Assembly: GCA_021781955.1 (NCBI GenBank)
Contig: JAJXVV010000007.1
Location: 1-44,743, forward strand
Source: a bacterium
Lineage (GTDB): Bacteria; Patescibacteriota; Minisyncoccia; Phycocordibacterales; UBA2100
Length of the DNA stretch: 44,743 nt
Direction: 5' to 3'
In this document: positions 41,824-44,743 of the stretch, piece by piece
How positions within the stretch are numbered: position 1 is the first letter of the stretch
Layout of the letters: the number at the start of each line of letters is the position of its first letter
Position numbers and translations under genes: made by a program
Notes under the pieces: generated by a model
Database searches by the model: none
What the model saw: the letters and a program-made list of their open reading frames with translations, nothing else
Told to the model about the DNA's origin: nothing

Positions 41824-42513
41824 ATGCCAGATTTCTCGCGCTTCGAGCAACGGATAGGGCACCCGTTCAAGGATGCGAGTCTCATCGCGACCGCTTTCAC
41901 GCATCGTTCCTACCTCAACGAGAACCGTGAGGTCGGGCGCGAGCACAACGAGCGGCTGGAATTCCTGGGCGATGCGGTCCTTGAGCTCGCGGTCACCGAC
42001 TTCCTTTTCGCGAAATATCCGGAAAAGCCCGAGGGCGATCTCACCGCCTATCGCGCGGCGCTCGTCAACACGCAATCGATCTCGGCGGCGGCCGCAGGAC
42101 TCGGCATGAACGACTTCTTGCTCCTCTCTCGCGGCGAAGCGAAGGACACCGGCCGCGCGCGGCAGATCATCCTCGCGAACGCCTTCGAGGCGCTCATCGG
42201 CGCGCTCTACCTCGACTCGGGGTACAAGGTCGCCGAGAAGTTCATCGCCGAACAGCTCTTCCACAAGGCCGATGAGGTGGTCGAGAAGCGCCTCTGGCAG
42301 GACGCCAAGAGCCGCTTGCAGGAGCTCGCGCAAGAAAAGCTCAAGATAACGCCGACGTACGCGGTCACCGCCCAGACCGGCCCCGACCACGACCGCGTCT
42401 TCACCGTCGCCGCATACATAGGGCAGCGAAAGTTGGCCACGGGCGAAGGAAGAAGCAAGCAGGAGGCGGAGCAGCGGGCCGCCGAGAACGCACTCAACGC
42501 GAAAGCGTGGTAA
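41824..42513 (+). CDS. rnc: Ribonuclease III
   Basis: A 229-aa double-strand-specific endoribonuclease for rRNA and mRNA processing. The signature HNERLEFLGDAVLELAVTDF and the second catalytic Glu in ILANAFEALIGALYLD are intact. A C-terminal dsRNA-binding domain runs from DAKSRLQELAQEKLKITPTY to the end (GRSKQEAEQRAAENALNA). Length is typical. It probably shares a transcript with nusB-Nudix, linking rRNA antitermination and processing. Confidence 0.97.
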   Translation: MPDFSRFEQRIGHPFKDASLIATAFTHRSYLNENREVGREHNERLEFLGDAVLELAVTDFLFAKYPEKPEGDLTAYRAALVNTQSISAAAAGLGMNDFLLLSRGEAKDTGRARQIILANAFEALIGALYLDSGYKVAEKFIAEQLFHKADEVVEKRLWQDAKSRLQELAQEKLKITPTYAVTAQTGPDHDRVFTVAAYIGQRKLATGEGRSKQEAEQRAAENALNAKAW

Positions 42514-42519
42514 CGCATG

Positions 42520-42544
42520 GCGGCGCGGCCGAAGGCCGCGCCGC
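42520..42544 (+). terminator. 11-bp perfect GC hairpin after rnc
   Basis: GCGGCGCGGCC and GGCCGCGCCGC pair around GAA, 6 nt after the rnc stop, with no U-tract. Confidence 0.55.
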
Positions 42545-42635
42545 TCCCGTCTCCCGTGCCATGGTCACCCGCGCCATCTCCGCCGGTGGAGCGATTATCC
42601 ACATCTTTCGCCACGCCGCATCGCGGTGAGCACGC

Positions 42636-42647
42636 GGGGGGGGGGGG
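42636..42647 (+). repeat. G12 homopolymer abutting the -10 box
   Basis: Twelve consecutive G, the longest homopolymer in the window, end exactly where TATAAT begins. It forms most of the -35/-10 spacer, so length changes would alter promoter geometry. Confidence 0.85.
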
Positions 42648-42653
42648 TATAAT
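42648..42653 (+). promoter_or_regulatory. -10 box TATAAT of surface protein gene
   Basis: A consensus TATAAT ends 9 nt before ATG 42663 (leaderless spacing). No good -35 is seen at 16-17 bp (GTGAGC/GGTGAG). Confidence 0.75.
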
Positions 42654-42662
42654 ACCAACCAT

Positions 42663-44743
42663 ATGAAATGGGGCTTTCTCTCCGCGATCGTTGCGCTCAT
42701 TCTCTCGGCGCTCGGCATTCACGTCGGCGCTCCCGCGGCGCAAACCGCAGCCGCTGCTACCCCCCCCCTCTAGTGAAGTAGCGCAGGTGACCGCCCCGCC
42801 GCAAACAAGCTTCGATTCCGGTGCCGCAGCAAGAACCTCCTCGCCCCTAGCGTCCGTCGCCGCCATCCCACAATCCGCGCCCGCCACGATTTCGTTCCCG
42901 AAAGCCAAGCCGCAGCCGCTCGCCATCCAGGGGTCTCTCACCGTCTCGTCCCTCGACGGCAGCGTTCTGAACAACATAGCCGCGCTGCTCGCCAATATGG
43001 ACGCGTACCTTGCTTCGACGACTCCGCAGCGATCGGCAGCCGTCCCTCAGAGTGTCGCGGCAGGCGGCGCTCCCAACACGATCGCGGCCGCCAGCAACAT
43101 CGGCCAGCTCAGCAACGTGACGATCAACAACCCGACGATCACAGGATTGAGCGCGGGCGACATCCCCGACCTCTCCGGCAAATACCTCTCCCTTTCTGGT
43201 GGAGCCGTCACGGGCACGACGACGTTTGCGAAGGCGGTCGGCATCGGGACGACGGCGCCGAGCGAAATGCTTTCAGTTAATGGTGTTATTGGCGCAAGCG
43301 ATGCCTTCGGCGACGCGAACGGATTCAGCGGCTTCACATGGGGATCAGACCCAGGAATTCCATTGATCTCTATCGGCTGGCCGGGTTCAACGACAGACAC
43401 GAACTACATTAAATCTTCCGACGGTGATAACCATTCACTTGGAATTGGAGCTGCGACGACAGGATCGGGGAACATCCGCCTGCTGGCGGGACTTGGCAGC
43501 ATCATTTTCTACAACAACGCCGCTGAAACAATGCTGATCGACAGCGCCGGCAACGTCGGCATCGGCACCACCACCCCATGGGCGCGGCTCTCGCTCGACA
43601 CCTCGAATCTTGCTGCCGGCGTGCCGGAATTCACGATCGGCTCATCGACGCGGCAGGACTTCATCGTCACACAGGCGGGGAATGTGGGAGTTGGTACTTC
43701 GAGCCCGACTGCGCAATTCGTGATCGCAAAACCGGAAGGGAGTGTGATCGCGAGCAACGCATCCCAGCTAGTCGTAAGCCACACATCAAACGGGGCCGCG
43801 TACCCTTACGCAGGGATTGATCTTGTCCACTACGATTCAAATCTCTCGCAAAACCAAGGAGGCGCAGTTTTGAATTTCCTCAATGGCACGACGATAGAAG
43901 CGACCTTGCGTTTTGATTCCGGGATTGGCGTCGCAAATGGACTCGGCCTTATCAATGACACCAATAACGGCGTCATATACTTTTCAACGAACGAATCGAG
44001 CGATTCCTACAACACGCCGACCGTGCGCTTGCTCATAAACGCGAGTGGCAACGTCGGCATCGGGACGACGACGCCTGATACATTACTCACGGTCGGCAGC
44101 GCAACGCCCACCGGCGCGGTCGCCCACTTCGAAAACTCCACCGGCTCCTGCTACATCAACCCCACGACCACATCACTTTCCTGCTCATCCGACGCACGCC
44201 TCAAGACCAATGTGGTGCCGCTCACGAGCGCCGAGGGGCTCGCTGCGCTCTTGCAGCTCGATCCGATCACCTTCAACTGGAAGACCGAGAGCGCCACGAG
44301 CTCGCCGCACACCGGCTTCATCGCGCAAAGCGTGCAGACGATCTACCCCGACCTCATCTCGCAAGGCCCCGACGGTTACTACACGATGAACTACGCCGGC
44401 CTCACGCCGTACCTCGTAAAGGCCGTACAGCAGATCGCCACCATCAGCGATGCGTTCCAGCAAAACCTCATCGCATGGCTCGGCAATGCCGGAAACGGTA
44501 TCGACAACCTCTTCGCCAAGAATCTCTACGCGAGCAACGTCACGGCGCAAACCGCCAACTTCCAGACGATGGACGCCTCAACGACCAAGACGGACGAACT
44601 CTGCGTCGGCTCCGTCTGCGTCGATCAGCAGCAGCTCGCCGCCATGCTCGCCACGGCTGGCCAGCCTTCCGCGTCCCTCGTATCGCCCAACGCCCCAACC
44701 TCACCCAGCGCGACCTCGACGCCGCCGCAGCTCCAGGTCAACG
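42663..44743 (+). CDS. Tail-fibre-like surface protein, frame broken at C9, 3'-partial
   Basis: ATG 42663 encodes a signal peptide (MKWGFLSAIVALILSALGIH) but reaches TAG at 42771, right after nine C. From there the +1 frame is open to the window end with typical coding sequence. Eight C would join both frames seamlessly. The downstream frame has GIGTTAPSEMLSV/VGIGTTTPWARLSL fibre repeats and a peptidase S74-type chaperone start (SCSSDARLKTNVVPL, TGFIAQSVQTIYPDL). A C-terminal part with LCVGSVCVDQQQLAAML follows, as in the gene at position 1. The ORF track missed it. It is either phase-off or a homopolymer sequencing error. Confidence 0.8.
42760..42768 (+). repeat. C9 tract that breaks the frame
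   Basis: Nine C lie between the signal-peptide coding region and the mature part. A stop codon follows 2 nt after the tract in the upstream frame; loss of one C restores a single frame. Confidence 0.85.

Follow-up and report, generated by a model that had tools for sequence, protein, structure and literature searches.

Phase variation through homopolymeric tracts is known mainly in pathogens and commensals exposed to immune defenses or to phages. In the porA and opc genes of Neisseria, a poly-G tract lies between the -35 and -10 elements of a surface-protein promoter. Coding poly-G/C tracts are found in contingency genes of both Campylobacter and Neisseria (PMC8355987, PMC5084427), and Helicobacter pylori sabA combines a promoter poly-T tract with a coding CT repeat, a gene for which slippage has been demonstrated and whose published genome allele is out of frame (PMC2715451). 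The stretch analyzed here (the window, 44,743 nucleotides) is the entire contig C2 (JAJXVV010000007.1) of a Patescibacteriota genome of 741,301 bases (12 contigs, 99.95% complete), from a tiny bacterium that probably depends on a host and whose genome size and gene content point to this phylum. At the right end of the window (42636-44743) lies a gene for a protein with a Peptidase_S74 domain which, judged from its sequence and from comparison with related genomes, we consider likely to be a contingency (phase-variation) gene controlled at two levels, with a product that is secreted or displayed at the surface.

All features of this locus are encoded on the forward strand. A G12 tract (42636-42647), the candidate promoter-level switch, directly abuts a TATAAT -10 hexamer (42648-42653), which is followed after 9 bp by the ATG start codon (42663); this spacing is shared with related loci and implies a leaderless, or nearly leaderless, mRNA. 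A canonical sigma-70 promoter was considered for the locus and rejected, as a strict scan finds none. The reading frame opened by the ATG (42663-42773) begins with a predicted signal peptide, MKWGFLSAIVALILSALGIHVGAPAAQ (42663-42745; hydropathy 2.59 over 14 residues, cleavage site judged by eye). Just 3' of it lies a C9 tract (42760-42768), the candidate translation-level switch. As assembled, with nine Cs, the frame reaches a dead end after 36 codons: its translation is MKWGFLSAIVALILSALGIHVGAPAAQTAAAATPPL, with the peptide ending in ...AAAATPPL at the stop codon TAG (42771-42773). The protein body lies in a different frame (42769-44743, coding score 108-110), which contains NVGIGTTTP-type repeats and stays open for 658 codons up to the contig end with no second lesion. 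Eight Cs would fuse the signal peptide to this downstream frame, open to 44743, and eleven would likewise join the two. Only 112 bp separate the G12 and C9 tracts of this one gene. The original prediction had placed G12 beside TATAAT and a frame break at C9 that eight Cs restore, and its coordinates, tract counts and frame arithmetic all proved correct on recount.

Within the body, the Peptidase_S74 (chaperone of endosialidase) domain, which carries the SDARLKTN... motif, spans positions 44188-44355 (PF13884, E=5.6e-16) and scores 59 bits against a curated cut-off of 22. Proteins with this domain are best known from phage tail spikes. The window protein shares with them PF13884 and an SDARLK motif placed after a repeat-rich body, but it is of a cellular, exported type with a predicted signal peptide. 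An exact search of viral contigs with the flanking sequence gave no match. Comparisons between paralogues yield non-synonymous rates (dN) below synonymous rates (dS), for example 0.49/1.37, in accordance with purifying selection on the paralogues of the S74 gene, although the estimate is rough, with dS close to saturation. The gene is incomplete, being cut by the contig end; no full-length orthologue was found in the genus, and the named genome collection contains one weak relative.

Compared with the described systems, the locus resembles sabA in its two-level logic and in that the published sabA allele, like the window assembly, is out of frame. It differs in the nature of its tracts (poly-G and poly-C here, poly-T and a CT repeat in sabA), in encoding an unrelated protein, and in that slippage is demonstrated for sabA and predicted here. 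Like the promoter-spacer loci of Neisseria, it has a poly-G tract at the candidate promoter of a surface protein; here, however, the tract abuts the -10 hexamer, no clear -35 element can be recognized, the mRNA is predicted to be nearly leaderless, and the phylum is another one. The likeness to the coding tracts of Campylobacter and Neisseria lies in long G/C runs within coding sequence and in the frame switching that these would allow. The original prediction had called it unusual for one gene to combine both levels in a CPR-type epibiont genome. This has to be toned down, since sabA already has both (PMC2715451). For Patescibacteria, also known as the Candidate Phyla Radiation (CPR), phase variation by homopolymers is not described in the literature searched, which left subscription papers outside. 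The architecture is thus already known as a kind, and the lineage appears to be new for it.

Tracts of this length are rare in the genome. By a dinucleotide model of the window, 45 kb should contain 0.0016 runs of at least G12 and 0.03 runs of at least C9. Pattern searches of the whole genome recovered 14 G/C runs of at least 7, ten of them exactly 7 and none 8, followed by single runs of 9 and 10 and two of 12. This distribution is bimodal: the long runs form a population of their own and not the tail of a geometric series. Only four tracts of at least 9 occur in 741 kb, and two of these sit on the S74 gene of the window. The third, a G10 tract (contig C6, 19462-19471), splits an exported-type gene whose product combines a hydrophobic N-terminus with a Fib_succ_major domain, and the fourth, a C12 tract (contig C10, 71051-71062), lies inside avd, a gene that belongs to a diversity-generating retroelement (DGR). 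In the split Fib_succ_major gene (L013:2797-4909), one G less would give an open frame; an S74-like paralogue lies directly 3' of it.

The placement of the promoter tract recurs in both the genus and the order. The genus comparison covered the surroundings of G/C tracts of at least 9 in 52 genomes, with G4-8 tracts from the same neighborhoods as reference. A -10-like hexamer, TAnnnT, lies 0-4 bp 3' of 22 of the 87 tracts of at least G9 (25%) versus 100 of 1897 for G4-8 (5%, p=3e-9), and promoters with at least 8/12 matches enclose the tract in 12/87 versus 14/1897 cases (p=1e-10). That long G tracts might merely be more often intergenic was rejected as a confound, as both enrichments persist outside called genes (p=8e-4 for TAnnnT, p=3e-5 for the promoter). 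Clear promoters in the genus include TTGACA-N10-G9-TATAAT (L122) and TTGACA-N6-G9-C-TATTCT (L121). Across the order (397 genomes), a run of at least eight Gs (G8-11) followed by 0-3 bases and TATAAT is present in 15 genomes, compared with 2 for a reversed-pattern control. Behind 12 of the 17 readable promoters of this type (window included) lies a gene with a hydrophobic N-terminus, against a background of 29% (p=5e-4), so that they mostly precede exported or membrane proteins. At L231, L232, L241 and L256 the ATG follows TATAAT by 6-10 bp, as it does in the window. Two of these loci, L231 and L256, belong to a single genome (G428) with at least five poly-G/TATAAT sites; both carry TTGCCA-N8-G10-C-TATAAT-N7-ATG before genes for exported proteins that are paralogues, and one of these genes ends after 39 codons.

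Tracts in the coding position recur as well. The key parallel to the window locus is L129 (genome G047), an S74 gene with two G9 tracts, one 5' of the ATG and the other 13 bp past it, in the signal-peptide region. The two tracts are 43 bp apart and the frame is intact, which makes L129 the second example, beside the window locus, of a layout with one tract on the promoter side and one on the coding side. Further genes with N-terminal tracts are found in frame (L128, with a Fib_succ_major domain, and L097, of the NVGIGTTTP type) and out of frame (L061, an ice-binding-like protein with G10, and L126, with a weak FGE-sulfatase-like match just below the cut-off). Such a mixture of states is what would be expected of contingency genes sampled at one genome per species. 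Given these similar runs at like places in relatives, it is very unlikely that the two-tract layout of the window is accidental.

A permissive genetic background accompanies these tracts. MutS (PF00488) is found in 0 of the 52 genus genomes, whereas the same search is positive in 11 of 14 controls; this contrasts with a CPR review in which mismatch repair genes are attributed to these bacteria (PMC10221324). The absence of MutS lifts one brake on tract slippage, which permits phase variation without proving it. The contingency reading is favored because of the tract excess, the placement of the tracts, the intact body, the recurrence of both tract types and the absence of MutS, and the same evidence supports the initial description of the locus as a phase-variation candidate.

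Slipped-strand mispairing at both tracts would be the most likely mechanism. Slippage in G12 would alter the distance from the -10 hexamer to upstream promoter contacts and thereby the level of transcription, whereas slippage in C9 would connect the frame of the body to that of the signal peptide or disconnect it, and so gate export of the body. The assembled copy would then represent the translational OFF state. The promoter step is the weaker part of this mechanism, because no good -35 element lies at the canonical distance in the G12 state. If the contingency reading holds for exported proteins of ultra-small episymbionts, it would offer these bacteria a testable mechanism for changing host attachment or evading phages, with tract lengths that can be counted directly in existing metagenome reads.

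Several observations weigh against this reading. No recognizable -35 hexamer lies 16-18 bp from TATAAT; in the G12 state the best match is 3/6, at 15 bp, although, speculatively, a longer G tract would place TGAGCA at 17 bp. The upstream neighbor of the S74 gene is rnc (ribonuclease III, 41824-42513; Pfam Ribonuclease_3/dsrm, with synteny in the genus), and no orthologue of the whole gene occurs at the rnc site in the genus, so that a like-for-like comparison of tracts is precluded. Wherever readable, rnc in the relatives is followed by other genes, in several of them directly by smc. One genome stands for the species, and we infer from sequence both the slippage of the tracts in the population and the control of transcription by the promoter tract. 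Finally, none of the three coding tracts (C9, G10 and the C12 of avd) is in frame in this assembly, an outcome with a chance probability of about 0.3, which would also fit consensus errors.

This last point bears on the alternative that survives best, an assembly or sequencing artefact, in which the true tract would be C8 (or C11), the gene ON, and the frame break a homopolymer error. It draws support from the uniform frame state of the coding tracts and from the difficulty of base calling, which is greatest in homopolymers of at least 9. The structure of the contig end argues otherwise. Its terminal 127 bp (44617-44743) are 100% identical to a paralogue on contig C6 (blastn), and this exact repeat falls within two S74-type genes, at the contig break; the contig was probably broken there by a short-read assembler with k=127. 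Since the repeat points to a short-read graph with k=127, a long-read homopolymer error is unlikely, and indel errors are rarer in such assemblies than in long-read ones. Furthermore, the G7/C7 runs within genes of this genome leave their frames intact, and the same layout recurs across independent assemblies. Even with a miscalled C9, a tract of at least 8 and the G12 promoter tract remain, and a miscount of one C would change the state (ON, not OFF) but not the architecture. On balance, we regard an artefact as an unlikely explanation of the frame break. Gene conversion between the paralogues is a possible source of the 127-bp identity.

A second alternative is a pseudogene, in which a frameshift became fixed at a poly-C run that is there by chance. 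The broken frame of the assembly agrees with this, as does the insertion of the gene where several relatives have smc right after rnc. Such decay is nevertheless highly improbable for a body of 658 open codons that lacks a second lesion, keeps its S74 domain intact and has paralogues under purifying selection. Arguing in the same direction, the gene has a second, independent tract at its promoter, and relatives carry the same tract types in frame. The idea that the C tract is a site of transcriptional slippage or ribosomal frameshifting, giving a fixed full-length fraction and no heritable switch, can be given very little credence: C9 could in principle allow RNA polymerase or the ribosome to slip, but no tool result supports this, and the separate promoter tract would be left unexplained, as would the fact that tract length and frame state vary among relatives, with several exactly in frame.

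Beyond the S74 gene, the contingency reading may extend to the DGR that contains the fourth long tract. This DGR (contig C10, ∼70096-72086; L014:4097-6087) is complete, with variable region (VR), template region (TR), bAvd and reverse transcriptase (RT), and is confirmed by bAvd and RVT_1 matches; its TR/VR pair spans 123 bp with 20 mismatches, all at TR adenines. The C12 tract lies in the N-terminus of avd. In the genus, tracts of C7-C14 occur in 19 avd genes, ∼24-37 nt past the start codon, five of them in frame (loci including L202-L225); the C run and the 5' region of the divergent RT gene overlap. Most other avd-like genes were found to be free of a C tract. By slippage, the avd C tract may switch the DGR itself. 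We see an even balance for and against the broader proposal that this lineage has a genome-wide poly-G/C contingency system that would switch exported proteins, by promoter and by frame, together with DGRs, where avd slippage would toggle the mutator. The literature searched, again with subscription papers outside it, contains no report linking DGRs with slipped-strand mispairing. If true, this link would bring together, in a single lineage, two ways of diversifying that are otherwise separate, and would place the mutator under a slippage switch. In another family of the order (L227, genome G111), the sequence G11-TAATATAAT lies 10 bp 5' of the start codon (ATG) of a reverse transcriptase gene of the DGR type, which places a tract at the promoter level of an RT gene.

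Two features near the tracts concern RNA. Between rnc and the S74 gene, a strong GC hairpin (42519-42545, RNA fold -29.8 kcal/mol, z -2.2) probably separates the rnc transcript from that of the S74 gene; it does not qualify as a terminator by the T-run rule, as the T run is absent. Among the promoter-tract loci, where tRNA was the sole Rfam match, L081 and L120 carry a conserved stretch (TAGCATnGGTTTAGGCnGCG...TACGGTAGTGGGnTTGnCCCACATGCC) 3' of a G9 promoter tract, in two genomes and without a called gene. This stretch matches no known RNA family and is possibly a new small RNA.
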